From Joostella atrarenae (GTDB lineage: Bacteria; Bacteroidota; Bacteroidia; Flavobacteriales; Flavobacteriaceae), in NCBI RefSeq assembly GCF_021764745.1, contig NZ_JAETXX010000009.1, positions 1-64,000 of the forward strand: 64,000 nt of DNA, in the 5' to 3' direction. The position numbers and the translations under genes are program-made. The notes under the pieces are model-generated. The model did not search any database. It saw only the letters and a list, made by a program, of their open reading frames with translations, and was not told the origin of the DNA. Positions 6,289-25,695 of the stretch are shown in pieces. Position 1 is the stretch's first letter. Every line of letters begins with the position of its first letter.

Positions 6289-6334
6289 TCACTGAATTCC
6301 GTGATATAAAAAAAGAAACACGAATGTAATTTAG
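6289..6334 (+). promoter_or_regulatory. Operator A and promoter for 6339
   Basis: TCACTGAATTCCGTGA (6289-6304) is a near-perfect palindrome matching the 16-bp motif found at four other sites. Exactly 22 bp later comes TAATTTAG (6327-6334), one base off TAnnTTTG. Because the start codon is at 6339, transcription would begin at about the A of ATG, predicting a leaderless message. Confidence 0.7.
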
Positions 6335-6338
6335 TGAT

Positions 6339-7346
6339 ATGGAAATAGGACTTAAACAAATCACGATTGGAATCGGAATTTTTATATTAATTGGAGGTAT
6401 TGTTATAAACGTTGCGAAGTCAAAATTTATGGTATCTAAGAAGGTAGCCGCTAAGAATCTGCATTCCTTTCTAGAAAGAAACTATAACAATAAGTTAGAT
6501 TACAGTGATTTAGATCGTTTTTTTAATTCGGGGAATATGAACCCCAATTGTTTTATTGCTCGAGTTTTTGAAAAAGAGAATCCGAAAGTAGAACTCATAA
6601 TTACTTTTGATGCCAAAAAAATTAATGATCTGAAAGATATCCCTTCCGATTCACCTGGTGGGTTGTCTTTTAATGAGCGGTATTTAGAAAGAGTTCTAGC
6701 CGTGAGAAAGCAAAATGAGATTTCAGAATTAATGGAACCTCTTGGGGTAACTTTAGAATGGGGTTACAATGAAATTATTTTCTCATTTAAAAAAGAATAT
6801 ACAGAGGCTGAAATTCTAGATAAAGAAGAGTATTTTTTAACCCTTTTCAATAAAGAGAAGTCAGAAATTCTAGGGTATTATCATGAGATCCCGTTGCTAT
6901 TAAATATTCCTCCAAATACTAATATTTCTCTTGAACATAATTTAGAACAAGTAGACTCAATTTGGGAATTAAAAAACTACCGGTTGCATAAAAAAGGGGA
7001 AGCTTTTAATGACATAAAAGAGACTGTTGATACTGAAATAAATAAGTACTTAAAAAAATCACATCCTAAACAAAAAACTTATGATTATTATGATAGTTAC
7101 ATTAATCCAAACAATTTTAACAATGTACTTTGGATAACTGCTACAGAAACGATAAAAACCAAAAAAGAAATAGAAGAACGAGAAAAGGGTGTTTGGGTTT
7201 CTCCTATTACAGGCTATATTAAGGTGTACTATAACAACGAAACAAAAGAAGTTCATTCTATTGACTTCGTTCCTATTTCTACCCATTTATCAATGGATGA
7301 AATGATAGCAAAAGAGGAAGAAGCATTTTTATCTACAAAGTGGTAA
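6339..7346 (+). CDS. Membrane-anchored hypothetical protein
   Basis: 335 residues with one N-terminal membrane segment (ITIGIGIFILIGGIVINVA, about residues 8-26) and a long soluble remainder without recognised motifs. The positive residues after the segment (KSKFMVSKK) favour the bulk of the protein being cytoplasmic. It is the first plus-strand gene of the locus and has its own copy of the shared operator at the fixed 22-bp spacing from a -7 box, so it belongs to the same regulon as the VWA, SUKH and DUF4132 genes. It ends about 130 bp before the next gene. Function unknown. Confidence 0.75.
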   Translation: MEIGLKQITIGIGIFILIGGIVINVAKSKFMVSKKVAAKNLHSFLERNYNNKLDYSDLDRFFNSGNMNPNCFIARVFEKENPKVELIITFDAKKINDLKDIPSDSPGGLSFNERYLERVLAVRKQNEISELMEPLGVTLEWGYNEIIFSFKKEYTEAEILDKEEYFLTLFNKEKSEILGYYHEIPLLLNIPPNTNISLEHNLEQVDSIWELKNYRLHKKGEAFNDIKETVDTEINKYLKKSHPKQKTYDYYDSYINPNNFNNVLWITATETIKTKKEIEEREKGVWVSPITGYIKVYYNNETKEVHSIDFVPISTHLSMDEMIAKEEEAFLSTKW

Positions 7347-7411
7347 TCACTCTTAATTGTTAATAGAGTACTTCAGAAATAAACGCTTAAACGTAAAGTT
7401 AATTAAAAGTA

Positions 7412-7457
7412 TCCCTGTATTCAGTGATAAAAACCTCTTTTTCACCCTCTACTTTTG
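7412..7457 (+). promoter_or_regulatory. Operator B and promoter of the 7475-9821 operon
   Basis: TCCCTGTATTCAGTGA (7412-7427) matches the shared 16-bp motif; after 22 bp comes TACTTTTG (7450-7457), a perfect flavobacterial TAnnTTTG -7 box, 17 bp before the ATG at 7475. The motif centre would be near -43, a classic activator position, and no TTG -33 element is evident. Confidence 0.8.
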
Positions 7458-7474
7458 TATAAACAATCTTAGTT

Positions 7475-7825
7475 ATGGAAGACAATAAATTAAATGGAGC
7501 ATTTTTAGATTCGTTAAAACGCAATAATGAAAAGATTAGAGACGATCGTGCAAGAGCCATTGTTGAAGATGCACAATTGCTTTATAAGCGGGAGGCTGAA
7601 GATTTAAGCTTATTACTAAAACGCTTAAAAAGAGAACAGGAAAACATGCTCGATATGAGTCCTACAGACGCTAATAGCCTTGTGTTGGCAACAGATTTCG
7701 ATGCAAAAAACTATGTCTCTAAAGATTTAGAAATGACAGTTAAGATTAGAAATTTAGAAATTAAACTAGAACTCGCTATTAAAAGGTATACATATCTATT
7801 TGGCGAAAAATTAAATATCATATAA
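7475..7825 (+). CDS. Hypothetical coiled-coil protein, first gene of VWA operon
   Basis: 116-residue soluble protein, mostly helical, with heptad-like charged stretches (LSLLLKRLKREQENM around residues 43-57) suggesting a coiled coil. No family recognised. It is one base upstream of the VWA gene (stop at 7825, next ATG at 7827) and is directly downstream of operator B, so it is co-expressed with the VWA and PurA-like proteins and may be a partner or scaffold for one of them. Confidence 0.75.
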   Translation: MEDNKLNGAFLDSLKRNNEKIRDDRARAIVEDAQLLYKREAEDLSLLLKRLKREQENMLDMSPTDANSLVLATDFDAKNYVSKDLEMTVKIRNLEIKLELAIKRYTYLFGEKLNII

Positions 7826-7826
7826 A

Positions 7827-8687
7827 ATGGGAGGAGGAAAATTTAGCTATGAAGCCTATACGCGCTTAAGGTTCTCAAAAGGTTATAATAACAAATCTAG
7901 AGAGCAAATATTTACTTCTCGAGAAATTGATCCAGAGATGAACCCCAGTAATGTAATTGCTAGAGAATCTAGAGATTCGGAGGAGCATCCAGAGTCATTA
8001 TCTATAATTGTAGCGCTTGATGTTACAGGAAGTATGGGGTTTGTACCCGAAGTTATAGTGAAGGAAACTTTGCCAGATCTAATAAGTTCTCTAATGGAAG
8101 CTGGAATTGAACACCCGCAAGTTCTATTTATGGGGATTGGAGATTTTGTTTATGATAATGCTCCTTTACAAGTTGGTCAATTTGAATCTTCGGCAGAGTT
8201 ATTAGATCGTTGGCTTACAAAGGTATATTTAGAAAGTGGCGGCGGTGGAAATAACCAAGAAGGTTATAATTTGGCTCATTTATTTGCTGCAAGACATACC
8301 AATATCGATTGTTGGGAAAAGAGAAAACAAAAGGGCTTCTTATTCACTATTGGAGACGAACCTGTTTTTGATAAAATCCCTGCTGAAGTAATCAAAAAAT
8401 ATACTTCTGAAGAAGAAGCTAAAACTATTAGTACAAAAGCTATTATTGAAGAAGCTCAAGAGAAATATAACGTGTTTCATTTACATTTAGAGCATTCAGA
8501 ATATTCTAAACATTCGCTACGAAAAGGAAACTGGAAAGAACTCTTAGGAGAACATTTTATTGAAATACCGGACTATATGAAGGTTGCCAAACGTATTGCC
8601 GAAATTGTAATACAACACCATAAACCAGCTTCTGGAAGTCAAACAAATAATACGCTAGGTAATCCAGAAATTGAAAATATGCTTTAA
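7827..8687 (+). CDS. VWA-domain protein
   Basis: 286 residues with a von Willebrand factor A fold. The metal-ion-dependent adhesion site is visible as DVTGSMG (D65, T67, S69), a DxTxS form of the usual DxSxS, followed by the expected FMGIGDFVYD strand and a Gly-rich GGGGNNQEG loop. There is no signal peptide or membrane segment, so it acts in the cytosol, like the VWA partners of MoxR-type AAA ATPases. No AAA ATPase occurs in this window. It is joined without a gap to the next gene (stop 8687, ATG 8688), implying translational coupling with the PurA-like enzyme. Confidence 0.9.
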   Translation: MGGGKFSYEAYTRLRFSKGYNNKSREQIFTSREIDPEMNPSNVIARESRDSEEHPESLSIIVALDVTGSMGFVPEVIVKETLPDLISSLMEAGIEHPQVLFMGIGDFVYDNAPLQVGQFESSAELLDRWLTKVYLESGGGGNNQEGYNLAHLFAARHTNIDCWEKRKQKGFLFTIGDEPVFDKIPAEVIKKYTSEEEAKTISTKAIIEEAQEKYNVFHLHLEHSEYSKHSLRKGNWKELLGEHFIEIPDYMKVAKRIAEIVIQHHKPASGSQTNNTLGNPEIENML

Positions 8688-9821
8688 ATGGCAAAATGTA
8701 GTATAGTTATAGATTTAGGGTTTGGTGATGCTGGAAAAGGTTTAACAACAAGTTTTTTGGCATCCCATAAACCTAAAGAAACGTTGGTAATACGATTTTC
8801 TGGAGGCCATCAGATTGGGCATACAGTAAAAAACGAGGAGCTTTCTCATACCTTTAGTAATTTCGGTTCTGGGACTTTACAAGGTATTCCAACCTATTAT
8901 TCTGAGCACACTACCCTATTTCCTCCTGCAATTTTAGAAGAAGGAAATTACTTAAATAAATACCAACCAAAACTTTATTTTAATCCGCTCGCAATGGTAA
9001 CCACCATTTATGATATAGCATACAATCGTGCTATTGAGAAGCAACAACGTCATGGTTCTTGTGGGTTAGGTTTTGGAACTACCATTGCTCGAAATAAGGA
9101 AGATGTCTATTTCTATGCTAACGATTTGCAATTTGCCTCTATCATAAAGCAACGTCTAAATAGTATTAGAGTTTACTATACAAAATTGATTCTTAATCAA
9201 CCTAAAAGTGTCCAAGATTACTTTGAAAAGGAATTAAAAAACTATGACGAGGCTTATTATATAGAAACGTGTTTGGCTATTCAAAAGTTTTATAGATTAG
9301 AAGGTTTGTCCACATTAGCTTCTTCTTATAGTGATTTTATTTTTGAAGGCAGCCAAGGAATATTGCTGGATACACAACATGGTTTCTATCCGCATACTAC
9401 GTGGAGTAATACGACTTCTAAAAATGCCATTCAGCTTATTAAAAAGCACTTGGGAAATCATGTAGAAATTGCGATCTATTATGTTACTCGTTGTTATCAA
9501 ACTCGACATGGAAATGGCCCAATGGCAAACACCGAATCGGTTACCCTAGAGAATAATGAACATGAAACTAATGTTACAAATGAATTTCAGGGTGAATTCC
9601 GAGTAAAAGCATTGGATAGTGAGTTATTAAATTATGCTCTTAGCTGTGATGCAATTTATCATGAGGAACTTAAAACAACTAAAAATCTAATCATTACATG
9701 TTTAGATCAACTCTCTGAATTTTCATCTTCTGATCTGCTACAAAAAATCAAAACTAACTTCAATACTGTATATGGTAGTTATAGCCCTATGTCACAATTT
9801 ATCAAGAAAATATCGGAGTGA
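8688..9821 (+). CDS. Divergent adenylosuccinate-synthetase-like enzyme (PurA superfamily)
   Basis: 377 residues, shorter than housekeeping PurA (about 420-430). The N-terminal nucleotide loop GFGDAGKG keeps the catalytic Asp (D14) and Lys (K17); GGHQIGHT (39-46) keeps the catalytic His where PurA has GGHNAGHT; FEGSQGILLD, SNTTS and RHGNGPMANTE also follow PurA. In contrast, the aspartate-binding TTTGR loop is shortened to FQGEFR, and the base-specifying TKLD is TCLD. So the fold and chemistry at the first half look intact while the co-substrates may differ. It sits in the VWA operon, far from purine genes. I infer a specialised activity, not general purine synthesis. Confidence 0.8.
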   Translation: MAKCSIVIDLGFGDAGKGLTTSFLASHKPKETLVIRFSGGHQIGHTVKNEELSHTFSNFGSGTLQGIPTYYSEHTTLFPPAILEEGNYLNKYQPKLYFNPLAMVTTIYDIAYNRAIEKQQRHGSCGLGFGTTIARNKEDVYFYANDLQFASIIKQRLNSIRVYYTKLILNQPKSVQDYFEKELKNYDEAYYIETCLAIQKFYRLEGLSTLASSYSDFIFEGSQGILLDTQHGFYPHTTWSNTTSKNAIQLIKKHLGNHVEIAIYYVTRCYQTRHGNGPMANTESVTLENNEHETNVTNEFQGEFRVKALDSELLNYALSCDAIYHEELKTTKNLIITCLDQLSEFSSSDLLQKIKTNFNTVYGSYSPMSQFIKKISE

Positions 9822-9878
9822 TTTCAGTCATAATATCACAATCAATCTAATGGTAAACGCCTTTAGGAGTATTCAAAA

Positions 9879-9924
9879 TAATTAGTTTCAGTGATGAGAA
9901 TTTAAATGTTCAAAGGTAATTTAA
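9879..9924 (+). promoter_or_regulatory. Operator C and promoter of the 9946-16527 operon
   Basis: TAATTAGTTTCAGTGA (9879-9894) matches the shared motif at 13 of 16 positions, the right half being perfect. After 22 bp comes TAATTTAA (9917-9924), a weak -7 box. This is the weakest box of the five sites but keeps the exact spacing. Confidence 0.6.
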
Positions 9925-9945
9925 CCCTATCATAGAGTTAAGAAA

Positions 9946-11031
9946 ATGAGTAATAATATACTATATTCAGAAGATTTTAAAGCTTTGAAATGGGATGATT
10001 TCAATTTCAATAAAATTCAAATAAATACCTTTCCAGTTCTTGAAAATCCAGATCATCATAAAAACTGTTTTATATTTAGAGATGTTCTTATTAAATCCAT
10101 TGAAAGAGTTACCAATAAAAAAGTATTTAAACTCTTATTTATTACACCCGATTATAAGTCTATTACCAAATTCTACGGGATTTCCTATTCAGAGGAAAAA
10201 ATAGTTTTCACATTTGAGATTGAAAATACCTCCCCATTTAAAGAATGGTTTTTGGCTATAAATAATAAAAAAGAAAAGGCTACTTCAACCATTTATGAGT
10301 TTAGTCATATTAGTTTTATTTCTCAGCCAGAGTCAAATTTTAAAGACATTCATATTTATAATGATACAGGTGCTTTTATCGAAAAGTTTATTCCTTATAG
10401 ATTTATTGCTGAAGAATTAGCCAAAGAAAAAGCAGATTACCTAGTGCCTTTTATTCAGCTAAATGTAGAAGAAGATTTTGATATAATTAAAAAAGAATTT
10501 GAAAATTTATTAGCATCCAAAAATCTTAAAGTCCACCCTCCCATTACAAATGACAAGATATATCTAGAATTTGAGAGAGAAGCAGGTTATGCGTTCCCTA
10601 AACTTTTAAAAGATTTTTTTAAACTCCATAATGGAGTTGAAGGTTTTTATTTTTTGAATGCACAGCAAGTCCTAGAAATATGGAAAGAATGGAATATCGA
10701 ATTCGAAGATTGGCGATTAAAAGAACTGCTAATTCCTGCACCAAATAAAAATAAAATAACAACAAAGATACCCTTTGAAGGACCACACCATGTTTCGTAT
10801 TTAAATTTATCTTTTACGGAAGAGAATGACGGAAAAAAACTCCCAATGTTTATGACACCTTATTGGATTCCATTTTTAAAATTAGAAGATGGAAATTATG
10901 CAGCGATAGACTTTGCCCCAAATATATTAGGGAAAGCAGGACAAGTAATCTGCTTTAGCAAGCAAAAGTTAACCGTACAACAAAAAGCGGACTCCCTGAG
11001 TGCCTTTCTAAAAAACCTTATAGATAAATGA
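9946..11031 (+). CDS. SUKH (SMI1/KNR4) domain protein
   Basis: 361 residues. The C-terminal half (about 175-355) is a SUKH domain: the LEFEREAGYAFPKLLKDFF opening helix, the LHNGVEGFYF segment, and the late signature PYWIPFLKLEDGNYAAIDFA followed by GQVICF. The N-terminal half (1-170) is a separate beta-rich domain I do not recognise. SUKH proteins are often immunity proteins of contact-dependent toxins, but here there is no toxin, and the gene leads an operon of large uncharacterised proteins under operator C. A role as a binding adaptor is therefore also possible. Cytosolic; no signal peptide. Confidence 0.8.
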   Translation: MSNNILYSEDFKALKWDDFNFNKIQINTFPVLENPDHHKNCFIFRDVLIKSIERVTNKKVFKLLFITPDYKSITKFYGISYSEEKIVFTFEIENTSPFKEWFLAINNKKEKATSTIYEFSHISFISQPESNFKDIHIYNDTGAFIEKFIPYRFIAEELAKEKADYLVPFIQLNVEEDFDIIKKEFENLLASKNLKVHPPITNDKIYLEFEREAGYAFPKLLKDFFKLHNGVEGFYFLNAQQVLEIWKEWNIEFEDWRLKELLIPAPNKNKITTKIPFEGPHHVSYLNLSFTEENDGKKLPMFMTPYWIPFLKLEDGNYAAIDFAPNILGKAGQVICFSKQKLTVQQKADSLSAFLKNLIDK

Positions 11032-11131
11032 GGTTGAATAATCTAACAACTAAATACCAAATGTTAAACTTCATTCTTCAATAACGAAGAAGTTCAATCT
11101 ATTAAAAAATAATTTGACTAAGTACCGATAT

Positions 11132-13615
11132 ATGTTTTCAATTTTTAAAAATAAAGTAATTCCAAAATTAAATATCACGCTTTTAGAACCTTCTGAAGGA
11201 AAAGCATTACTAGATATTTTAGGACTAATGGATTGCGAAAAGAGCATTCTTTATAAGAATCTAGAAAATAGTATTACCAATAAAAATTGCAATTCTATTT
11301 TTTCTGAATCACTTGCAAAACAAATTTACTATCATCCAGAGATTTATGCGAATGAGAAAGAAGGTTTAGAGTTTATTGCTTCGTGGCTACCGCTATTAGA
11401 GAATGGTTTTTATCCAGATAAAAAGAGTAGTTATAAATTGACTGATTTCCTCTATTTCAGTCTTAGCTTTTTACAATCGGAAGACATTTCAGAAAATCTA
11501 AGAGATCAAATTTTTACTGTCATCAAAAAGCTAGTACATAGCGAATCTGAAGCCTCACTCCCAATTACTCGTTTTCTGATACATCGCGCATTCGATATTA
11601 GAGATTATTTGAGTTCAGATTTTATCATTCAGCAGTGTTTAAAACACACAATTTTAAATGAAACTTATGCTGTAGTTAACTCCTCTAAAGAAGCCACAAA
11701 ACATTCCTTTAAGATTAATAATGACTTTATTAAGCATTTTTTTAATGATGATTGGCATGAATTTATTACAGCTTTACACCAAATATTACCTGTAGGAAAA
11801 ACATATCTTTTAGGTGCTTATAACTTAATCCAACCATGGCTTTCGGAAAATTTAGCTACTTTTTATAATGATAATTTAGAATATGCTTTCGCAGCGCACA
11901 AAGCCCTTCAAGAACGCTTAGTTTTTGTAGAAGAAGAAAGTATCGATTTACTAAATATAAAAACTGCAAATGGTATTTATCCATTAATCACTTCTTTAGG
12001 ACTTAAAGAGTGGAATGCTGGAGATGTTTTACTTTTTAATAACCGAAATAAAGATATTCCGACCATACAATTAGAAAAGTGCTATCTAAAATTTTTAGAT
12101 TGGTTAAATGCAGATGGCGGGAGTAATTTTTTCACGGAAGCTTTCCAGGATAATGGTAAACATATTTTAGAAGACATTAATACTTCTATAATCCCAATTG
12201 ATTTCTTACCATTTTGGTTCGAGAAATGTAATCAAAAATCAGGGAACCCAGAACAAGTTAAACTTTACAACACTATATTTTCAGGATATTTAAAAGGTTT
12301 TCAAACTGGAAGTTTACCTATAGTTTTTCATGAAGGAAAAGAATTCCAAGTTACGGGAGTGTTTATAATTAGAGACTTATTTAAAATTAATAGCTCCTTA
12401 AAAAACTGGCTTGATCATTTTAAAGAGTTTGGCATTAACGATCCATTGAACCAATTCTTAGTGCTTTCGTTTTATGACGCACGCGCTTCACTACTCGAAC
12501 TTTTTGATCAAGAGGATCAAGAAACTCTGTATAAATATTTAATAGAAATGGCTTATACAGCTAGAAATACTTCAGAAGATATTAAAGTAAATAGCCTTAC
12601 TCTAATTGTAGAGACACTAGCGGGATTGTGTGAGCAAACAGAGAAGTTTAATATTGTTAATGAAGTTTGGGCTTTAAAAAATATTGATAGTTGTATTTCT
12701 ACCGCTTGTAATGAATTTGCAAGAACCCATTATATCAACGAAAACCGTCCTCTTTCTCTAAACCATATTGAGAGTTGGTATAATTTTTTAAGCGATTATT
12801 ATTACAGCGCCCGCAGAGAAGCAGTATGGGTTTCAGCTGTTTTAAAAACGCAAGGTACACGTACAGCCAATCATTTTAATGCTATTGAAGACGATATATC
12901 TTTCTTTTTAAATAAAACATTTAATCGCCTACTCGTTTTGCATCAAAAGAGTACAATTAAAGGGGAACACATAAAAGCACTAGCGACAGTTGGTACAGAA
13001 ATTGAAAAATATCTTAAAGATTTACTTCAACAGTTAAACAAAGAAAAGCTCGCTAAACCTATTGTACAGTCTCTTTATGAATATAATAATGCATCTGAAG
13101 TAAACTTTTCTAATAACAAACAACTACAAGCTATTGTAAATGAATTTTATGATTATCATTTTCAGCAGGAAATAGAAAAAGAAACAATTGTAGTTGAGGA
13201 GAAAAAGGAAAAATTAGAAACTGATATATCTAGTTTCGAGATAAATCAAAAATACATTGAAATGCTCTTAAATAATCTTGAAAATTATAAGCAAACTAAT
13301 GATTATGAGATTGAACTCCTTACTGCTTTTAACGAAAATACATCGCAATTAAAAATTTGGTTTGAAGAACACCCAGCTATAGAAATGCAACTTAACCAAG
13401 CGCTTTATATGACATTATTAGATGCAGATTTAGCTCCAGGGACAACGCTTGAAACATATGGAAACCTCTGTAGAAATCTATTTGTTTCAGTAGCAAAGAA
13501 CACTAAAATGGCAAGTTCTTATGAGTTGGGCTTAAAGGCTATGGCAAACTCGGGAGCCTACTCAAAGGAGTTAACAACAGCTTTATTAGAAGTAGTTAAC
13601 GATTTAAACACATAA
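11132..13615 (+). CDS. Large helical protein of unknown function
   Basis: 827 residues from the ATG at 11132; an in-frame TTG at 11114 would add six residues but the ATG is preferred. The protein is alpha-helical throughout, acidic, without signal peptide, membrane segments or catalytic motifs that I recognise, and has a Lys/Glu-rich linker near residues 680-700 (EIEKETIVVEEKKEKLE). It may be a helical-repeat scaffold. It is the second gene after operator C and is followed after three bases by the DUF1266-like gene, so it is part of that operon. Function unknown. Confidence 0.8.
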   Translation: MFSIFKNKVIPKLNITLLEPSEGKALLDILGLMDCEKSILYKNLENSITNKNCNSIFSESLAKQIYYHPEIYANEKEGLEFIASWLPLLENGFYPDKKSSYKLTDFLYFSLSFLQSEDISENLRDQIFTVIKKLVHSESEASLPITRFLIHRAFDIRDYLSSDFIIQQCLKHTILNETYAVVNSSKEATKHSFKINNDFIKHFFNDDWHEFITALHQILPVGKTYLLGAYNLIQPWLSENLATFYNDNLEYAFAAHKALQERLVFVEEESIDLLNIKTANGIYPLITSLGLKEWNAGDVLLFNNRNKDIPTIQLEKCYLKFLDWLNADGGSNFFTEAFQDNGKHILEDINTSIIPIDFLPFWFEKCNQKSGNPEQVKLYNTIFSGYLKGFQTGSLPIVFHEGKEFQVTGVFIIRDLFKINSSLKNWLDHFKEFGINDPLNQFLVLSFYDARASLLELFDQEDQETLYKYLIEMAYTARNTSEDIKVNSLTLIVETLAGLCEQTEKFNIVNEVWALKNIDSCISTACNEFARTHYINENRPLSLNHIESWYNFLSDYYYSARREAVWVSAVLKTQGTRTANHFNAIEDDISFFLNKTFNRLLVLHQKSTIKGEHIKALATVGTEIEKYLKDLLQQLNKEKLAKPIVQSLYEYNNASEVNFSNNKQLQAIVNEFYDYHFQQEIEKETIVVEEKKEKLETDISSFEINQKYIEMLLNNLENYKQTNDYEIELLTAFNENTSQLKIWFEEHPAIEMQLNQALYMTLLDADLAPGTTLETYGNLCRNLFVSVAKNTKMASSYELGLKAMANSGAYSKELTTALLEVVNDLNT

Positions 13616-13618
13616 ATA

Positions 13619-14278
13619 ATGACGCAAGATATTACACCGACAATACAAGATCAATTAAACCTATCTGCTTTGATTTTAAGAAACAATCATAAAAATGCAG
13701 AATTAACAAGTTGGTCTGGTTTTAATTTAGAAGATGAGATTCATGTAAAGCATGCAAAAAGATTATTAAAGCTTTACGGGATTAAATCTGGCTTACATCT
13801 TCGTAACAGTTTACAACGCTATGAAAATGGCAGCATGGTCTCTAATAGTTTTGAAAAATTAGCAGCAAAATTTAGAAGTTTAACAACGCAAGATTTTGAA
13901 GCCGAATATAATAAATTGGAGAATCCAAGTACTAAAAATATCTATAAACGGGCGTGGAAATACCGCTTTAGCTTGCAAAAAGAGAAACTCATTGGTTACG
14001 AACTTGCTTACTATATTTTCTTAATGCGTTTGGGTATTGTCTTAGATTTTATAACTCTTGATGAAGTTATATTAAGATTAGAGGATGTAAATACCCGCAT
14101 AAAGTCTACTTTTTCTAGCTGGGGAGAATTTCACCAGAATGTATGTATTGGTGATGAGTTTGTTTCAGGAGCTAAAGAACAAGATAATAGTAGATTTCCT
14201 GGAATAGAGACGCTTTGGGAACACTACCAACGGTTATACATACAAAATGGAGAATGGTTTAAAGAATGGAAATTATGA
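13619..14278 (+). CDS. DUF1266-like protein
   Basis: 219 residues. The C-terminal half carries the pattern I associate with DUF1266: a helix with YELAYYIFLMRLGIVLDFIT, then a second helix ending in FSSWGEFHQNVCIGDEF and a final ETLWEHYQRLY segment. DUF1266 proteins are uncharacterised and occur near polymorphic-toxin and VWA-type loci. The stop overlaps the next start in an ATGA arrangement (14275-14278), implying translational coupling to the TPR protein. Family call is from memory and moderate. Confidence 0.65.
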   Translation: MTQDITPTIQDQLNLSALILRNNHKNAELTSWSGFNLEDEIHVKHAKRLLKLYGIKSGLHLRNSLQRYENGSMVSNSFEKLAAKFRSLTTQDFEAEYNKLENPSTKNIYKRAWKYRFSLQKEKLIGYELAYYIFLMRLGIVLDFITLDEVILRLEDVNTRIKSTFSSWGEFHQNVCIGDEFVSGAKEQDNSRFPGIETLWEHYQRLYIQNGEWFKEWKL

Positions 14279-16527: not shown

Positions 16528-16560
16528 GTAGCTATTAATAGCTTAAAAATAAATTAAAAA

Positions 16561-16590
16561 ACTTCTTTATGTTAAGTGTCATAAAGAAGT
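16561..16590. terminator. Bidirectional terminator between the convergent halves of the locus
   Basis: Perfect 10-bp stem ACTTCTTTAT / ATAAAGAAGT around GTTAAGTGTC, with A-runs before and T-runs after, so it works on both strands. It separates the TPR gene from the minus-strand gene ending at 16618. Confidence 0.9.
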
Positions 16591-16617
16591 TTTTTTTTAG
16601 CTTTAAATATTCTTAAA

Positions 16618-17019
16618 TCAGCTCATTTTTAAATTGTTAAGAAATACATCCTGCAAAACAGCCGTAAAGTAAGCATCATGCGCATAGGTGTTATTTTCAA
16701 TGAAAGACTGGCTAAAATTACTTACTGAAGAACTTCCAAACGTAAGAGTAAGCTCTGGAGTATCATTATTTTTAAAAAATAATTTAATAGAACCAGACCA
16801 ATCCCCTGGCTGATTTGAGATCCATTTTAAGAAAAGTTCTGTTATAGTAGCATTTATAGATCCCGATATGTAAACCTCTATTTGCCTATCAGAACTATCA
16901 CTTGAACTATATCCTGATGAAAAATTATAATCAAATTGACTTAGCTCAAATTTTTGGTTTGTATTCTTATCTTCATTTAAAACAAATTCTATTCGGTCTA
17001 TTACATTGTTTTGTTGCAT
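16618..17019 (-). CDS. Small beta-rich protein, possibly Hcp-like
   Basis: 133 residues, acidic and Ser/Asn-rich, with alternating strands and no signal peptide. The order of elements (an FDYNFSSGYSS strand, an IEVYISGSI strand, a helix with LFLKWIS, then IKLFFKNND, LTLTFGSSS and FSQSFIENN) is reminiscent of the Bacteroidota type VI tube protein Hcp/TssD, but no other type VI component is in the window and I could not confirm it. It is the last gene after operator D and ends at the shared terminator. Treat as unknown with a structural hint. Confidence 0.6.
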   Translation of the reverse strand: MQQNNVIDRIEFVLNEDKNTNQKFELSQFDYNFSSGYSSSDSSDRQIEVYISGSINATITELFLKWISNQPGDWSGSIKLFFKNNDTPELTLTFGSSSVSNFSQSFIENNTYAHDAYFTAVLQDVFLNNLKMS

Positions 17020-17034
17020 AATAATGGGTTTAAA

Positions 17035-17724
17035 TTATAAGGTTTTTTCTATTTCAGTTTGTAATTGGGTTACTGTTAAAGCGCTTTTTAGTCCTTTTGA
17101 AACATCTATAACTACAGAAAGTACATCGTCTTTTAAAGTATATTCATTTGTATTCTCTAGACTAAAATTAATTACTGATGCCACTTCTCTAAAAGCTTCT
17201 TTAGCCAATTTATCTTCAGCTATTTTAGAGAGTGTTTCTTTTAAAAGTAACAATACTTTTGAAGCATAAAATTTATCTAAATCTTCAGGCGTTTCTTCGT
17301 ATTTATAAACAATAGAAATTTCTTTATCAAATGTTTTATTAAGATCTAATTCCAACTCTTTAATCTCTTTTTTTAACTGAAGAAGTGTCGGTATGTCACT
17401 AGTATCTGGAGTGAATGGAATTTTCCCATCAGATAGTAAATGGATGTATTTATTGAATTTCACTAGAGAAATCGAAGAAATAGCATGAGACTGCACATAT
17501 TGCAATTCTGGATTATTATCATACCAATTTCCAAGAAGTATTATATTTTTACTAGTATCATAATTTATAAAGTAACCAGATACATTCCCCGCAGTCGTGC
17601 TTATTATAACTTTGGGCATATTAGGCTTCTCTTTAGTTCGCTCTTGGTCTGCAATCTCTTGAAGTATTTTTATAACCTGACTAATCTCTAAAACAGGTAA
17701 CTGCAACATTGTATTAAAATCCAT
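17035..17724 (-). CDS. Protein with Hfq/Sm-like motif and C-terminal helical region
   Basis: 229 residues. Residues 38-90 read like an Sm fold: a strand KVIIST, A45-G46, then G50YFINYD56 and IILL, and a later QSHAISSISL (79-87). Compare Hfq, where G-Q-I-E-S-F-D, a V-I-L-L strand and YKHAIS occupy the same order. The loop before G50 is one residue shorter than in Hfq. The rest (about 110-229) is helical and unknown. Hfq binds RNA; whether this protein does is untested. It is the first gene after operator D, 15 bp upstream of the Hcp-like gene. The motif call is by eye. Confidence 0.65.
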   Translation of the reverse strand: MDFNTMLQLPVLEISQVIKILQEIADQERTKEKPNMPKVIISTTAGNVSGYFINYDTSKNIILLGNWYDNNPELQYVQSHAISSISLVKFNKYIHLLSDGKIPFTPDTSDIPTLLQLKKEIKELELDLNKTFDKEISIVYKYEETPEDLDKFYASKVLLLLKETLSKIAEDKLAKEAFREVASVINFSLENTNEYTLKDDVLSVVIDVSKGLKSALTVTQLQTEIEKTL

Positions 17725-17743
17725 AATTATATTTTTTATATAA

Positions 17744-17789
17744 CAAATATGGATTACTAAGAAAGAATTTTAGTAACTGTTTTCAGTGA
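17744..17789 (-). promoter_or_regulatory. Operator D and promoter of the 17724-16618 operon
   Basis: TAACTGTTTTCAGTGA (17774-17789, read on plus) is the best form of the motif. Reading the minus strand, 22 bp later comes CATATTTG (17751-17744), one base off TAnnTTTG, and the ATG follows 19 bp later at 17724. Confidence 0.75.
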
Positions 17790-17847
17790 TATTTTAGAAT
17801 AAGGAATAAGATATATGTACGTAGATTTTCATAGGTTTTCGTAACAT

Positions 17848-18177
17848 TTAATATTCATCCAACTGTAACTCCTTTAGTTGAATATTACTATTTTCATTTA
17901 TAAATTGAAATGTTCCTTTACCAGTTACTTGCTGTGAAAAAATAACAACATCCTCTCCGTGAGAAACACCAAAATCTAAGTCGAAGGAAAGCGTTGCGCT
18001 ATTAAAAGTGAAGGTTTTATCAGTTAAGTTTACAGCTACATTTATTGGGTTTAATGCTATGTCATACATATTTGGAGCATAATTTCCTAAATCCATATCA
18101 ACTAATAATTTAGACCACGAAGCATGGTTTTCTACTATGCTTTCTACTAGCTTATCTTGTATGCTTTTTATTGTCAT
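17848..18177 (-). CDS. Hypothetical small beta-rich protein
   Basis: 109 residues, soluble, without signal peptide. After a helix of about 30 residues it is predicted by eye to be all strands, with alternating hydrophobic residues (FTFNSATLSFDLDF and a GKGTFQF strand). No family recognised. It follows the 18204-18617 gene by 27 bp on the same strand, so it is likely in the same transcript as the DUF4132 gene. It resembles the 133-residue protein at 16618 in composition and strand pattern, so the two could be distant relatives or tube-like paralogues, which is speculation. Confidence 0.65.
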   Translation of the reverse strand: MTIKSIQDKLVESIVENHASWSKLLVDMDLGNYAPNMYDIALNPINVAVNLTDKTFTFNSATLSFDLDFGVSHGEDVVIFSQQVTGKGTFQFINENSNIQLKELQLDEY

Positions 18178-18203
18178 CTTCTGATAATTTTTAAAGTATT
18201 ATT

Positions 18204-18617
18204 TTACCAATACGTACCTACTAAAAATGTCATTCTTATAAATGCAATCACACTTTTTGAAGTTAATTCTAAAGGCTCTTTTAATTCAGTTACTTCATTA
18301 TCATCTACAAATACAACAAAAAGCCCATCTTTAAAAGCTAACAATACATTGTCTATAGCTTGTTGCAAGTTAGCTTGATCTGTATTTGATATATCGCCAA
18401 AATCCACTTTCCCACTTTGCGCTTGTTCTTGAATTTCTGATGGACTCAAAAAGCCAACTACATTAACTTCTAATCGTTTTTTATTAAACGCATCAACTTG
18501 GTTTTTCACACAAGAGATTAATAGTTCTTCTAAATTATTGGGTGTTTTAGAAAGTGTAATTGGGACTTGTTTGATCTTTTTTTTGCCTAGTTTTTTTAGC
18601 TGAAGTGTTAATTCCAT
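18204..18617 (-). CDS. Small conserved-looking partner of the DUF4132 protein
   Basis: 137 residues with a basic N-terminal strand region (LTLQLKKLGKKKIKQVPITL) and a C-terminal pair of strands around FVVFVDDNEV and SVIAFIRMTFLVGTYW. No catalytic motif, no signal peptide. I recall similar short proteins next to large DUF4132/DUF5724 proteins in other bacteria, which would make it a core partner, but this is memory and not a search. It is 102 bp downstream of the DUF4132 stop on the same strand. Function unknown. Confidence 0.7.
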   Translation of the reverse strand: MELTLQLKKLGKKKIKQVPITLSKTPNNLEELLISCVKNQVDAFNKKRLEVNVVGFLSPSEIQEQAQSGKVDFGDISNTDQANLQQAIDNVLLAFKDGLFVVFVDDNEVTELKEPLELTSKSVIAFIRMTFLVGTYW

Positions 18618-18718
18618 TTTTTATAGTTTTTTGCGTAAAAGCTGTCGTGAGAAAGTATAAAATTTTGCCACAAAAGCATACCCCACCGAAGTGGGGAAAC
18701 ACTCTTATAATTATATGA

Positions 18719-21700
18719 TTAACTATTTATTTGTGCCAAAATAGTTGGATCTTGTATTTTATTATCTTCGGACAGTAATTTCATTTTAGATATGATCTCA
18801 GCAGATTTCGGATCATCGTCTACAAATGGTAAAAACATACGTCCTCGATGCTGACTATGAACAGGGATAATAGATAAAGATAGACCGTGTTTACTAACTT
18901 GTCCGCTTCCCAAATGGATGCTATATTCGCCAAGTTTCCCTTTTATAAAAATGTGTCGCTCTTTAACAGTTACATTTTTAAGCTTGAATAATCTTGCTGA
19001 CTCTTCTGCTAGAACCGCACGCATCTGCATCGTACTATGACTCGCCTCAGGATCTACACCACCAACGTGAGCAACACTTACCACAAGATCTATATCTCGC
19101 ATAATCTCACTAAATACCACGGAAGGAATTTCCGAAAGCGGGATAATTTGATAATCATCTATAGAATGAAAACAGATGTCTTCGAGTGTTGGAGCTTCTA
19201 TATCTGAAGGAGAGTACCAATCAGCCATTGCATACATAGTGGCGATAAAACCTCGCTTATGAAATACCTTCTGCAATCCATCTTCCATACTCACCGTCCA
19301 ACCGCGACCCCTTAAAAGCGCCACCGTTTTTTTAGGTTGAATTTGGTGACCTTGATAGCGTTCCGACCTATTACTATTTTCGCGCTCATCATCTGTAATT
19401 ATATATAATTCTCTAAATACCTGTTTAAAGGGCTGTACAATACGCTCAGCAAAAAGGTACTTTTGATATACATCCCACTCCACTGCTTTGTATAAATGAG
19501 AAGCATGCATAATTTGCAATGTATCATTCTCTTCTAATAGATGTGTTTTCCCAGTAACAGCTACTAAACTTCCGTCTTTATAAAATCCTGAAAATTCTTT
19601 TTCTGGGGCGAATAAAACCAACTTACTAAGCATCTTTTTTACGATAGGATGCTGCATCATATTATGAATCTCAAGAGCGGTAAATTTGTCTTCGTTTACC
19701 ATTGCATTCTCAAGAGATAAACGCGTTCTACTGTATTGTCGAGAAAGATAGTTTTTGCTCTCTTTTAACGCTAAAACTTGTTTATCTTTTCTATATTTTG
19801 CTGGAATTGACTTAAGAGATTTACCAGCTTTATTTACCTTAATTACAGTTTTGCCAAGGTCATTAATTGCTAATTCTATTTCTGTTTCATCAATAGTAAT
19901 GACTGCATTTTTCATGATATCTTGGGTGGCTTTGGTTTCCATAGCCCAATTAAAGCGCACCCGATCTTGGTAACCTGCATTTCTGGATAAATTATCTAAA
20001 GCAATTTCTACTGCTGCAAGTTCACTTTCTTGACGTTGAGCACCAAACTGTTTACTTTCTCTCAAAAACTCTTGTAAAAGGTTGTATCGTTTAAGTAAAT
20101 CTTTTTCTGGAACAGTTTTACTGAGTGGAATTAAACCTAAAGCACGAACATAATCTTTATCGCGTTTGTCTTTAATCTTCTTTAGCGTTTCAGTAATTTT
20201 TACCTCGCCTAGCATTACGCTAGAATAAAGTTTTACTTGTCTATGCCCATTTCCATCTGTAATATATTTGGCAGCATCATGAAGTATTTTCCAGTTCGCT
20301 TTACCTAAACTAGTGTATACTTTATTAAACCAATCTATATCTATTGCACCTAGGGCAAAATCAGATTTTGGGATATTAGAGTATCTTGAAATAATGGTTT
20401 CCTTTTCACTATTCATATAATCTGAAGCGTGTGCTTGAAACCACCATACGGCATTTTCTAATTTTTCTAATCCTAAATATTCTCCTACTATACCTGCCCA
20501 TTGTGTGGCGTAGCAAGCAAGTTCTATTAAACGTTTTTTTGGTAGATTAGCTTCATCTGCTAATGTGGCAAAATCTAAATAACTTTCAGCATCACTAAAG
20601 GTGCTCTTTTTAAGCATAGCACTAAACTTAGACTTTTTACTGTCTCCATAGTAACTATAACCACGCTCAAAATTTTCTTTTCCTAAACGCTCTAAAATTC
20701 TAAAAACATATGCTACACCTTCTACCTTGTTAATAGCATTAATATACTCCGAGGCTGGAGTTGCCAAATCTCCTCGCTCTAATTCTGTATCTAATAAATT
20801 AGCTTTTAAACTTGCAAATACTTGCTTAGGGACACTTCCTCTTTCTATCCTTTTATAATTCATCCTATAATTGAAGCCGCCATCAATGATTGTCATTAAT
20901 TCATTAGAATATAATGCCTGTAACAATAGATCGTCTTCGTTAATTAAACCTTGTTTATAGAGTTTTAAAGTGACAAAAAGGTTTGGAAGTATAAGTTTGT
21001 TAGATCTATTTTTCTCGTTGGTAATAATTTTTACATCTGAAATACTATCAGGGTAACCAACATATTGTGCCATTAAATACACATATATTCCCCAATACCT
21101 TTCGAGCTGTTCGTGAGAAAGTAACTCTAAATCTGGCTCATTTATATATCCTGAATACGAAACTATTACAGTTGACCAATACTTGACTTCAGTATAATAG
21201 CTCCCATTAGATTCGAACTTATATAGCTTATATTTTTCAGGAAAATTAGCAACCATATCTTCAAACATATCTAATTTAAAGGATACAATTGTTTTTCTGT
21301 CTACATAAACATCAAATAAACGATTTAAAATAGTGAGGTATAATCTAGACTTCGAAGAATACTTATCCTTGTCATCAAGATTTAACGCTTCTAAACCAGG
21401 AATATATTGTTTTATAAAAGGCTCTAAATCTTTATAAAATCCATAAGGAGCATCTTTACTGTTGATGTAATTTATAGCAGCATATAATTCAAAATCATTT
21501 AATTTACTCTCCTCATACCATGAGATCCATAAATTTGCTAAAGGAATATTGTTCAGATATTCTAAGGCTGTTGCATCACGATCTAAGTCTTTTATATCAC
21601 GAATTCCTTTTTCTAAATATATCGTTTGTATTTCCCCTTGATATCCCGCTACCTGATATTCGAAGTTTCTATTTTCATGAACGATATCAATTAATCTATT

Positions 21701-23716
21701 AACGGTGGTAACTATTTTTTTTACGTCAATAAAGTCTTTAAAAATAAAACTTGAAGATTGCGATGTAGAAATTCCCAATTTATCAAGAAAACTATTCTTC
21801 CGTTCAAAACGAGATTGTGGATGGTATAGCGGACTTAAATTATCATAATCTACTGCTCCAAAACCATTACTAAAGTTATATTCTTCGGTATTATTAGAAA
21901 GTTTATCTAAATATACTTGCTCATTTTTAGTGATTTTAGGTCGTTTTCTATAAATATCTACTTGTTGCTCAATAAAATCTGGTTGTCTATTATTATCGTG
22001 TAAAAGGGTTAATATTTCTAACCCTGCTAAACGTTGCTCTACACTTTTTGAGGTCACCAAGTTTGTAGTACTTCCCTTTAAACGATCTACCGGTAATTCT
22101 ATTAATAATTGAATCAATGAGGTGCGTAAACCCTTGTTCTTACGTCTTAATAAATCTTCGGCGATATGTAAATCTTCATCATAAAGATGCATTTTACTAA
22201 ACAAGTTAAGTCCAGTAGTCATTAGCAGTTCATTCCTATTGTAAATTGCCTTTCTTGCTAATGTTCTCTTCCATGAATTTTGATCGAAATTTAAACGTTC
22301 CTTTTTTGCTGACTTTTGATTGTAATTATAAAATGAATAACTATAATGTTTAGGAAAAACTTTACGGATATAACTTTCTCTAAATTCTGTTGGCAGCTCT
22401 TCTAAATCATCAGCCATAGATTCTAGCTGCTGCTCTGTAGCTCCATTAATAAGAAACTGATAAAAATAATATGGACTAGGAGTAAAACTCCACCAAGAGA
22501 ATATTTTAGTTTCGAACTTTTTCCCGCTTTCTGAAACGTTTTTAGCTACGGTTAATAATCGTTCAAAAGTATCATTCTCTAAAGTAGTTGGAGGTAAATT
22601 TACAAGCATCCAGTGATCTAAAGCTGGATCTTTCCCCAATTCATTCACAAAATAATTTACCAAAGAATCGTTTGTGCGTTCTGTTGTACTCATAAAGTAC
22701 AAAGCAAGAATCTTTTTGTCTCTACTCTCAGAATTATAAACAATCTCTAATGCTTGTTCATTGGCACGATCTACATCCAATATTCCTATTGACCATAAAC
22801 CAACAAAAATTTCTAAATTATCTTTACTTTTTAATAAAAGACCTACGTCTTTTATATTTAAAATATGAGATTCAGCGAGTTCTAAAATACGATTTATTGA
22901 TGCTTTTTTTGGAGTTTCCCAATGCAAGCCAAACCACATAGAAACAGCTCTAATCACACTACTAAAACGTGTAAGGTCATTTTTTAAAACAACACCAATC
23001 ATGTACTTAAGCGCACTAAGACCTGTTTCGTCTAAGGTTTCTAAAATTGTTTGCCTTAATCCTTCCTGACGTTGCGCTGCTAGTAATAAATTAGCGACCA
23101 ACTCCCAATGTTTTTCTTCTTCTGAAAGTAATAACGCATGAATAATATCCTTGCTTACTCCTCCTATTTCATCTTCCCCTTGAAGAATATCATTCAATAA
23201 CTCATCAAATAAACCTCCTGAATTATGAAGAACAGCAGCAAAAAAATAGCTATTACTTTGAGGAAAGTAAGTGCTGTATTGAAAATGTTCCTGCAATGAA
23301 AGTCCTCCAAATCCTAAACGACTATTTTTTAAAAATCTAATAAAATAGTTTATTTTATTTACTAAAACCTCTTTTGTAGGTTTTGATCTAAACGCTTTTC
23401 TATCATACCCCTTTTGGTAAGGTAACGTATTGATAAAATCCCACATCGAAGCTAGGTAAGGCGCTTGTATTACACCATATAACTGAATCCCCAATCTCAT
23501 GCCTTCTTCGGTTGCCCAAGGATTTACAGTTAGGTAATCGTCAAATTCTTCTATAAAATCCTTTACATAATACCTTGAATCCTCATCTTTTTCAATACAC
23601 CCTAAAATTTTACCTAGAATATTATAAGGTCTTGAAAACCGACCGAATTCAAATCTATCAACATCAGGTTTTTGATGTTTTCTTACGTATTTATTAGCTT
23701 CTTCTTCTGGAATCAT
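18719..23716 (-). CDS. Giant DUF4132-domain protein (MolR/YehI-like)
   Basis: 1665 residues, no signal peptide or membrane segment, so cytosolic. Most of the length is helical and repeat-like (about 1-1350). The C-terminal part carries the recognisable DUF4132 block from about 1370 (MMQHPIVKKMLSKLVLFAPE, then the VALLRGRGWTVSMEDGLQK stretch) followed by a second conserved block with RDIDLVVSVAHVGGVDPEAS. In E. coli, DUF4132 is in YehI and MolR, near a MoxR-type ATPase and a VWA protein; here the VWA gene is about 10 kb away in the same regulon. The biochemical role of the family is unknown. It follows the DUF6892-like gene by about 75 bp and is probably driven by operator E. Confidence 0.85.
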   Translation of the reverse strand: MIPEEEANKYVRKHQKPDVDRFEFGRFSRPYNILGKILGCIEKDEDSRYYVKDFIEEFDDYLTVNPWATEEGMRLGIQLYGVIQAPYLASMWDFINTLPYQKGYDRKAFRSKPTKEVLVNKINYFIRFLKNSRLGFGGLSLQEHFQYSTYFPQSNSYFFAAVLHNSGGLFDELLNDILQGEDEIGGVSKDIIHALLLSEEEKHWELVANLLLAAQRQEGLRQTILETLDETGLSALKYMIGVVLKNDLTRFSSVIRAVSMWFGLHWETPKKASINRILELAESHILNIKDVGLLLKSKDNLEIFVGLWSIGILDVDRANEQALEIVYNSESRDKKILALYFMSTTERTNDSLVNYFVNELGKDPALDHWMLVNLPPTTLENDTFERLLTVAKNVSESGKKFETKIFSWWSFTPSPYYFYQFLINGATEQQLESMADDLEELPTEFRESYIRKVFPKHYSYSFYNYNQKSAKKERLNFDQNSWKRTLARKAIYNRNELLMTTGLNLFSKMHLYDEDLHIAEDLLRRKNKGLRTSLIQLLIELPVDRLKGSTTNLVTSKSVEQRLAGLEILTLLHDNNRQPDFIEQQVDIYRKRPKITKNEQVYLDKLSNNTEEYNFSNGFGAVDYDNLSPLYHPQSRFERKNSFLDKLGISTSQSSSFIFKDFIDVKKIVTTVNRLIDIVHENRNFEYQVAGYQGEIQTIYLEKGIRDIKDLDRDATALEYLNNIPLANLWISWYEESKLNDFELYAAINYINSKDAPYGFYKDLEPFIKQYIPGLEALNLDDKDKYSSKSRLYLTILNRLFDVYVDRKTIVSFKLDMFEDMVANFPEKYKLYKFESNGSYYTEVKYWSTVIVSYSGYINEPDLELLSHEQLERYWGIYVYLMAQYVGYPDSISDVKIITNEKNRSNKLILPNLFVTLKLYKQGLINEDDLLLQALYSNELMTIIDGGFNYRMNYKRIERGSVPKQVFASLKANLLDTELERGDLATPASEYINAINKVEGVAYVFRILERLGKENFERGYSYYGDSKKSKFSAMLKKSTFSDAESYLDFATLADEANLPKKRLIELACYATQWAGIVGEYLGLEKLENAVWWFQAHASDYMNSEKETIISRYSNIPKSDFALGAIDIDWFNKVYTSLGKANWKILHDAAKYITDGNGHRQVKLYSSVMLGEVKITETLKKIKDKRDKDYVRALGLIPLSKTVPEKDLLKRYNLLQEFLRESKQFGAQRQESELAAVEIALDNLSRNAGYQDRVRFNWAMETKATQDIMKNAVITIDETEIELAINDLGKTVIKVNKAGKSLKSIPAKYRKDKQVLALKESKNYLSRQYSRTRLSLENAMVNEDKFTALEIHNMMQHPIVKKMLSKLVLFAPEKEFSGFYKDGSLVAVTGKTHLLEENDTLQIMHASHLYKAVEWDVYQKYLFAERIVQPFKQVFRELYIITDDERENSNRSERYQGHQIQPKKTVALLRGRGWTVSMEDGLQKVFHKRGFIATMYAMADWYSPSDIEAPTLEDICFHSIDDYQIIPLSEIPSVVFSEIMRDIDLVVSVAHVGGVDPEASHSTMQMRAVLAEESARLFKLKNVTVKERHIFIKGKLGEYSIHLGSGQVSKHGLSLSIIPVHSQHRGRMFLPFVDDDPKSAEIISKMKLLSEDNKIQDPTILAQINS

Positions 23717-23789
23717 AATTTTTGTTCCTTTTAATATATTGTAACTGCTCTTTGTTTATTATTTCAATAGAGATAACTCTAAAACTTAT

Positions 23790-24692
23790 TTATAACCATT
23801 CAGTATCAATTCCCATTTCTATAAACTCATCGTAAATAGCATCTTTTGCATAACATAATGTTGCCTTTTTAAGATTGGGGAAATGCACCATATCATCACT
23901 ACTTATAATATCCCATTCATCTTCCCACCCGCCAGAAAAACGAATCAAATTTATATAAATATCATTTCCTCCATCCTGATAGATTTCTGTAACCTCCGAA
24001 GCAAACCGTTTTGGAATTTGCAAGTCTTTAAAATATTGGGTAACCTCAGCAATTTGGTCGTACCCCTCCTCTTCAATATCTATTTCTCTGTGAGGATACC
24101 ATTTTACAAATTCATACAAATCAAATTTCGGTTGTAACAATCCTTTTTCATACATCAGTACTTGAATAATCGCTACTTTAAATCCAAAATCAACAAAAGG
24201 AATAATCTCTTCATTTAATTCTTTAATAGTGTATAAATCTTTAGGAATTCCATCACTCCGATTGTAAGGCTTATATTCACTAATTTCTATAGCATCAATA
24301 GCGTTTTCCCCCACATAAAACCAAGCACTAATATTATTTAATACCAAAGCACCACTATCATCACCTTCAAATAGTTTTACATGCTCTTCCTTATAAGTTT
24401 CATAGTAATTGGTAATTTCCCTATTGTTGAAGTAAAATATGCCTGTAAATGTTTCTTTAGGACTAAATTTAAAGGTTTCTGAAGTTAATTCTATTGCTAT
24501 AGACTCCACCAATTCTCCATTCTTAGAATGTGCTATCACCCCCAATTCGTCCCACGTAAAAATTGTATTATACTTTGCTTTATGCCTAATACAAGTGCTC
24601 TTTAAAATGTCTTTCAATTGATTTATTCCAATAGGAAACTCTACGGAAACCGAATTAATTTGAAAATCATTTGAAGTTAGCTGTAATACCAT
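23790..24692 (-). CDS. DUF6892-like protein
   Basis: 300 residues from the ATG at 24692; a TTG three codons earlier (24701) is also in frame but less likely. The second half follows a pattern I associate with DUF6892: a helix with FKVAIIQVLMYEKGLL, then FDLYEFVKWY, IDIEEEGYDQIAEV, YFKDLQIP, and YQDGGNDIYINLI, ending PNLKKATLCY. The first half is a beta-rich domain with a GIFYFNNRE strand. No enzyme motif is seen. It is the first gene after operator E and precedes the DUF4132 gene, so the pair is probably co-expressed. Function unknown. Confidence 0.7.
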   Translation of the reverse strand: MVLQLTSNDFQINSVSVEFPIGINQLKDILKSTCIRHKAKYNTIFTWDELGVIAHSKNGELVESIAIELTSETFKFSPKETFTGIFYFNNREITNYYETYKEEHVKLFEGDDSGALVLNNISAWFYVGENAIDAIEISEYKPYNRSDGIPKDLYTIKELNEEIIPFVDFGFKVAIIQVLMYEKGLLQPKFDLYEFVKWYPHREIDIEEEGYDQIAEVTQYFKDLQIPKRFASEVTEIYQDGGNDIYINLIRFSGGWEDEWDIISSDDMVHFPNLKKATLCYAKDAIYDEFIEMGIDTEWL

Positions 24693-24852
24693 TTTTAGCA
24701 ATATTTTAATTTTTAATTATAAAGACTCCCGTGTCTTATAGCAATTAGCATAGGTTTCAAAATTAACTTCACCATAATTTTATCTTGAAAAATAAGATTA
24801 TATTCTATATCCAAATATAAGTGATCTTCATTTTATATGCCAAGCACGATTA

Positions 24853-24898
24853 CAAAGATGGATACTTATGTTTAAAATTTACTAACTGTTTTCAGTGA
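24853..24898 (-). promoter_or_regulatory. Operator E and promoter of the 24692-17848 unit
   Basis: TAACTGTTTTCAGTGA (24883-24898, plus reading) is identical to operator D. On the minus strand CATCTTTG (24860-24853) starts exactly 22 bp later. The start codon is 160 bp downstream of the box, so this message would have an unusually long leader of roughly 150 bases. The leader holds no gene I can support. Confidence 0.75.
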
Positions 24899-24966
24899 TA
24901 TTATAATTCCATAAACCCAAATGTTGAAAATCATAAATCGAAGAAGAGTTCATAGCAAATAAAAAA

Positions 24967-25012
24967 TCGGATTACTTCAATAGCTTTTAAATAACTAGTA
25001 GAAGAAATCCGA
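24967..25012 (-). terminator. Terminator of the two-component operon
   Basis: Long inverted repeat: TCGGATTACTTC (24967-24978) and GAAGAAATCCGA (25001-25012), 12-bp arms with one mismatch and a 22-base loop, followed on the minus strand by a T-run. It isolates the response-regulator gene from operator E. Confidence 0.8.
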
Positions 25013-25045
25013 CTCCCGAAAAATACTTTCTTTTATTTTAACTTA

Positions 25046-25684: not shown

Positions 25685-25695
25685 TATCAATATTA

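Follow-up and report, generated by a model that had tools for sequence, protein, structure and literature searches.

A palindromic motif at a fixed distance from the promoter box marks a putative local regulon around a DUF4132 gene cluster in Joostella atrarenae

Gene content of the locus

The DNA analyzed here, called the window, is a stretch of 64,000 nucleotides at the start of contig NZ_JAETXX010000009.1 of Joostella atrarenae (Flavobacteriaceae; assembly GCF_021764745.1). About 14 of its genes, as judged from strand and spacing, appear to form five units (A to E), and a two-component gene pair lies beside them (Table 1). The B unit encodes a trio of proteins. No Pfam model matched VWA286, and the VWA call was made by eye. 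The PurA-like 377 protein (8688-9821) passed PF00709 at 1.5e-34 and, with 93.3 bits against an equivalog cut-off of 402, fell short of a true PurA (adenylosuccinate synthetase). The same trio is present in loci labelled Gammaproteobacteria, Hahella and Spirochaetes, where the motif described below is absent, and by label the relatives of the VWA protein extend to the Chloroflexota.

The Hcp133 model is an Hcp-like barrel (pLDDT 83.6), and its best PDB match is F. johnsoniae Hcp1 (E 5.6e-5, TM 0.62-0.67). The D229 model (17035-17724) has an N-terminal Sm/Hfq-like barrel with Hfq as the best PDB match (E 4.6e-3), none being at or below 0.001. Pfam detected no type VI secretion sheath, baseplate or ClpV among the 14 cluster genes; a TssD match over the cut-off was found elsewhere (G000, C56:204038). 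A defense system was also considered, and PADLOC on 10 of the 14 cluster proteins returned a single match (VWA286, E 0.008), so none is claimed. A strong bidirectional terminator-like hairpin (16556-16595) separates the convergent C and D units. The membership of p137 and p109 in the E unit is uncertain because another terminator-like hairpin lies at 18681-18696. DUF1963 and DUF2262 proteins are present in a relative (G014). Together with the SMI1/SUKH protein here, they suggest that the cluster may serve conflict or envelope biology.

Table 1. Sites, transcription units and candidate regulator genes in the window
Feature	Coordinates	Strand	Remarks
Site A	6289..6334	+	Motif 6289-6304, box TAATTTAG 6327-6334; 5' of A335; matrix score 33.0
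A335	6339..7346	+	Protein without Pfam or NCBIfam match
Site B	7412..7457	+	Motif 7412-7427, box TACTTTTG 7450-7457; 5' of B116-VWA-PurA-like genes; matrix score 37.7
B unit	7475..9821	+	B116, VWA286, PurA-like 377; putative operon, from spacing
Site C	9879..9924	+	Motif 9879-9894, box TAATTTAA 9917-9924; 5' of SMI1-p833-DUF1266-TPR753 genes; matrix score 20.0
C unit	9946..16527	+	SMI1/KNR4 361, p833, DUF1266 219, TPR753; putative operon
D unit	16618..17724	-	D229, Hcp-like 133 (Hcp133; TssD E 5e-4, under cut-off)
Site D	17744..17789	-	Motif 17774-17789, box CATATTTG 17744-17751; 5' of D229-Hcp133; matrix score 33.2
E unit	17848..24701	-	DUF6892/DUF7738 303, DUF5724/DUF4132/DUF7737 1665, p137, p109 (Pfam)
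Site E	24853..24898	-	Motif 24883-24898, box CATCTTTG 24853-24860; 5' of DUF6892-DUF4132; matrix score 36.0
Terminator-like hairpin and T run	24955..25050	-	Separates RR214 from site E; RNA fold -19.5 kcal/mol, z -2.38
RR214	25046..25690	-	NarL/FixJ-type response regulator, candidate binder; Response_reg 6.1e-26, GerE 4.2e-15 (Pfam)
HK655	25696..27663	-	TPR-domain sensor histidine kinase, presumed RR214 partner; TPR, HisKA_3, HATPase_c

Five sites with one promoter layout

A first-pass annotation of the window had reported five 16-bp near-palindromes, each followed at 22 bp by a -7-like box. The window letters bear this out: all five 16-mers lie at their claimed positions, D and E are identical (in promoter orientation TCACTGAAAACAGTTA), and each motif is followed, at a distance of exactly 22 bp, by an 8-bp box, on the plus strand for A-C and on the minus strand for D-E. 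The palindromic form also stands, but the proposed consensus, TAACTGTTTTCAGTGA, had to be replaced by TCACKGnnnnCMGTGA. Site A has four mismatches to the earlier form and is therefore absent from the genome list at up to three mismatches. Two heptamers separated by 2 bp (7-2-7) can be made out in the corrected motif, an inverted repeat of 16 bp. Site C is the weakest of the five by matrix score and is accepted because it is conserved 5' of the orthologous gene, SMI361. Between site E and the ATG at 24692 there are 160 nt, as against mostly 12-15 nt between site and start for DUF6892 genes elsewhere; site E and the DUF6892 sites of relatives may thus not be the same by descent. In the stretch 6327-6339, a transcript starting 5 nt past the site A box would begin at the A335 ATG, and would be leaderless unless the start codon is misplaced.

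The sigma-A box of F. psychrophilum, TAnnTTTG, is located at -12 to -5 (PMC9723704). With the box placed there, the motif covers -50 to -35 and is centered at -42.5, in agreement with the class II activator position that had been proposed from a center near -43 for site B. A conserved TTTG between motif and box, as a -33 element would provide, was absent over 100 relative sites. The sites thus fit the class II sigma-A promoter layout of Flavobacteriia, with a putative operator near -42 beside TAnnTTTG.

The fixed spacing had been called hard to get by chance, and the counts agree. In the window, motif plus 22 bp plus box matched 5 times at up to three mismatches, where 0.13 matches are expected; the five are A, B, D, E and D read as its palindromic reverse, with C missing, and none of 100 shuffles reached 5. 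When at most two mismatches were allowed, the 3.99-Mb genome yielded the four sites A, B, D and E and nothing outside the locus; at up to three, there were 7 matches against 2 with a reversed control. A matrix trained on relatives alone ranked A-E as the best five sites in 84 kb, with scores of 37.7-20.0 and a next score of 8.9; its maximum over 20 simulated sequences was 11.0.

Conservation of sites and spacing in relatives

The 1665-aa DUF4132 protein is present in 21 of 299 sampled family genomes, the window's own counted. DUF4132 stretches from 13 of the 20 other genomes and 50 VWA-protein loci gave a comparison set of 63 loci, window excluded. Five relatives retain most of the locus; among their 17 motif sites (at most one mismatch), 12 have the box exactly at 22 bp, and no other distance between 5 and 49 has more than 4 boxes. 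Conservation upstream of orthologues was strong. Over the 63 loci, 101 sites occur at spacing 22 (one of them in L104, which is the same genome as G257) versus between 1 and 9 at every other spacing in the range 12-34. The exact threshold matters for some loci. With at most two mismatches and a box score of at least 5, four loci (L103, L118, L121 and L126) yielded zero sites though HK and RR are present, and their sites were recovered at three mismatches or by matrix.

The sites stand 5' of operon-start genes and not of internal ones. A spacing-22 site is found upstream of 23/27 SMI361 orthologues, 17/32 B116 orthologues (with equally loose scoring, 6/32 fit spacing 23), 15/25 DUF6892 orthologues, all six D229 orthologues and 4/7 A335 relatives. 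No such site was seen upstream of VWA (0/49) or PurA (0/50) relatives, of p833, DUF1266 or TPR753 (0/25 for each), or directly upstream of HK (0/27) or RR (0/17). None of nine DUF4132 orthologues has a site inside 250 bp upstream; G119, G033 and G176 have one site each near the DUF4132 or p137 gene. The DUF4132 gene of G176 (C9:178058-178492) was matched in fragments only, with a motif site upstream.

In the upstream alignments of SMI361 and B116, the motif, A-rich bases and box are in register, and for orthologues with a called site the box ends 15-33 nt 5' of the start codon. The arms TCACTG/CAGTGA are strongly conserved over 100 relative sites, and the innermost heptamer bases are A in 52% and T in 59% only.

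A candidate regulator pair beside the cluster

The first-pass annotation named no regulator. The HK655-RR214 pair at 25046-27663, just upstream of site E, is the likely candidate. Both Pfam models of RR214 are over their cut-offs, giving it the receiver plus GerE helix-turn-helix of the NarL/FixJ type, and the nearest solved sequence is NarL (1a04, E 1.4e-24). The phosphorylatable Asp is present at the D58 column in all 29 rows listed of the 45 aligned. A signal peptide and a membrane segment of HK655 were read by eye from its translation.

RR214 orthologues in four relatives (G236, G014, G100 and G257) are 77-80% identical and lie near the same cluster genes. There the pair directly follows TPR753 and hence is downstream in the C unit, as it is in many named loci among those listed. 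It follows SMI361 in L100 and L121, and it is apart from the cluster in L105 (Fulvivirga). The matrix scan found no site 5' of HK655-RR214 in the window. In some sister operons, a site stands directly before the kinase. Where the genes are downstream in the C unit, the circuit would therefore feed itself.

Co-occurrence of sites and pair

With a matrix from whose training the scanned locus was left out, all 28 stretches that hold the pair have at least one site (136 sites). Among the 35 without the pair, 6 have one (16 sites); these six are all DUF4132 stretches, of which there are 9, and none of the 26 VWA loci has a site. On simulated sequence, the same matrix gave 0 matches in 1,561 kb. Winogradskyella and two Maribacter were grouped in this test; G014/L115 and L118/L126, which are closely related and so not independent, were treated as separate. 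By label, the Bacteroidota account for only about 9 of the 26 VWA loci without pair and motif, so the contrast is partly phylogenetic. In one VWA locus (L107), the contig ends 3.3 kb past the VWA gene, and a motif-like stretch lies 5' of B116.

The rule that an RR214 orthologue is required is not exact, since it is broken by six stretches. This bears on the first alternative, in which an unlinked factor common in the family binds the sites and the kinase-regulator pair is a mere passenger of the cluster. The sites persist in G294, G220, G119, G259, G033 and G176 without an RR214 orthologue in the fetched stretch, and no GerE-type helix-turn-helix was found within the fetched stretch of G294, G220, G119, G033 or G176. 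Against it, the motif geometry is NarL-like, every pair-holding stretch has sites, and a sister kinase-regulator operon bears a site in G294 and G220, likewise in G250. The best RR homologue of G294 and G220 (42%) is elsewhere in the genome, and the motif lies 5' of the adjoining kinase gene; both kinases match HK655, and the box of G220 fits 4/6 only. Counting against RR214-type regulators as the binders, the one RR-homologue operon examined in each of G119, G033 and G259 showed no site, and that of G176 only a weak one. On balance, we regard the unlinked factor as unlikely.

Sister operons were surveyed in 40 RR-homologue neighborhoods, picked from a ranked homologue list for a matrix scan. 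Eight had a sense-strand score of at least 13 and one an antisense score at that level. For G220, G164, G294 and G238, half of these eight, the motif starts 49-96 bp 5' of the kinase reading frame. An HK655-like kinase is present in 38 of the 40 neighborhoods, so the kinase alone is no predictor of the motif.

A scan of the 299 family genomes at no more than one mismatch gave 17 sites in 12 genomes, versus 5 for a reversed control. Nine of the 17 fall in the cluster (G000, G014, G236, G257 and G294). Of those outside it, the G250 site is directly 5' of a kinase gene matching HK655, with an RR 2 kb further on. A near-perfect site in G100 (L158, C1:1496480-1496525) is 5' of an Hcp133-like gene whose product has an apparent signal peptide and is 31% identical to Hcp133. 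A G279 site inside a coding frame is probably chance, and the remaining five of the eight out-of-cluster sites are near genes without a match to the cluster.

In the RR tree (45 rows), the seven in-locus regulators group with support 100/100, and all six sister regulators labelled site-bearing fall in one 25-row clade (100/98). Their distribution within that clade is scattered, with 3 changes, a value as low being reached in 16 of 500 shuffles. Near other RR homologues, a variant TACCTG/ACCCTG..CAGGGA occurs with a -7-like box (L184 596, L189 928 and L199 1422), a hint that an operator code may be shared across the family. A distant RR (L211 in G131, 3867-3930) has three near-adjacent perfect palindromes TCACGG....CCGTGA upstream of it, with no box at 22 bp.

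Proposed mechanism

The reading we favor is that of a local regulon comprising about 14 genes under class II-type activation. Most probably, the five sites are the operator through which RR214/HK655 switches the cluster on by class II activation; the sites themselves, their fixed spacing, conservation and operon-start placement, and their co-occurrence with the pair point to this. HK655 would sense a signal outside the cell or at the membrane and phosphorylate RR214. Two RR214 molecules would then bind the 7-2-7 repeat centered at -42.5, beside a -7 box lacking a -33 element, and the bound regulator would recruit sigma-A RNA polymerase in the class II manner. In this way, five promoters may turn on the genes of one system together.

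Binding of RR214 or its relatives could also repress, for example by blocking polymerase, which we consider quite improbable. Repression tolerates variable positions, whereas activation requires a fixed distance from the box; the strictly fixed distance and the lack of a -33 element are the needs of activation. Repression is compatible with what is seen, namely position and geometry, and NarL does repress frdA from a 7-2-7 site, but that site is near the start, at -4/+6 (PMC4549865). A chance pattern or dispersed mobile repeat is practically excluded: the motif without its box is unspecific (74 whole-genome matches at up to three mismatches versus 51 for the control), but the genome scan, the orthologous positions kept across genera, the relatives-derived matrix that picks out exactly A-E and the left-out-locus test rule out both, and the conserved part is limited to the motif, A-rich flanking bases and box.

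Relation to known systems and significance

Activation through RR214 would have a close parallel in E. coli NarL, which is likewise a receiver plus GerE domain protein. The NarL operators of napF and yeaR are 16-bp inverted repeats of heptamers 2 bp apart in a similar upstream position (-40 to -49 and -38 to -47), as given in PMC4549865. The half-site differs, being TCMCTGA-like here and TACCCCT for NarL. Unlike the E. coli system, the one proposed here would combine a TPR sensor kinase, a sigma-A -7 box without a -33 element and, in Bacteroidota, a local regulon spanning the cluster. PorXY-SigP of type IX secretion is also a two-component control of a multi-gene machine in Bacteroidota (PMC4800418), but it acts via an ECF sigma factor; the system here would use a regulator of the NarL type with the housekeeping -7 box.

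The regulon had been called undescribed. A literature search by title and start of abstract, a scope that leaves subscription journals mostly uncovered, found no paper on the motif or cluster. The E. coli genes molR/yehI are DUF4132 genes with a VWA gene nearby; neither a motif of this kind nor a kinase-regulator pair is known to us from that region, and the same goes for a PurA-like or an Hcp-like gene. To our knowledge, apart from those of sugar-use loci, few response-regulator operators have been described in Bacteroidota. The arrangement here would be an operator of the NarL type in a class II location, controlling an uncharacterized cluster and with a candidate regulator.

A broader possibility, which we put forward tentatively, is that RR214 and its sisters form an undescribed Bacteroidota regulator lineage with one operator code, switching a whole unknown machine as a unit triggered by an envelope signal. 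That machine would comprise an Hcp-like tube protein, the giant DUF4132 protein, VWA, a PurA-like enzyme and SUKH/DUF1963-type proteins, and the unlinked, apparently secreted Hcp-like gene of G100 would be switched as part of the same unit.

The exact promoter grammar, a 7-2-7 repeat set 22 bp before a -7 box, is kept across genera and in one Fulvivirga locus (L105). A specific kinase-regulator pair would thereby be tied to genes without an assigned function, and the inducing signal would offer a handle on the role of the DUF4132 cluster.
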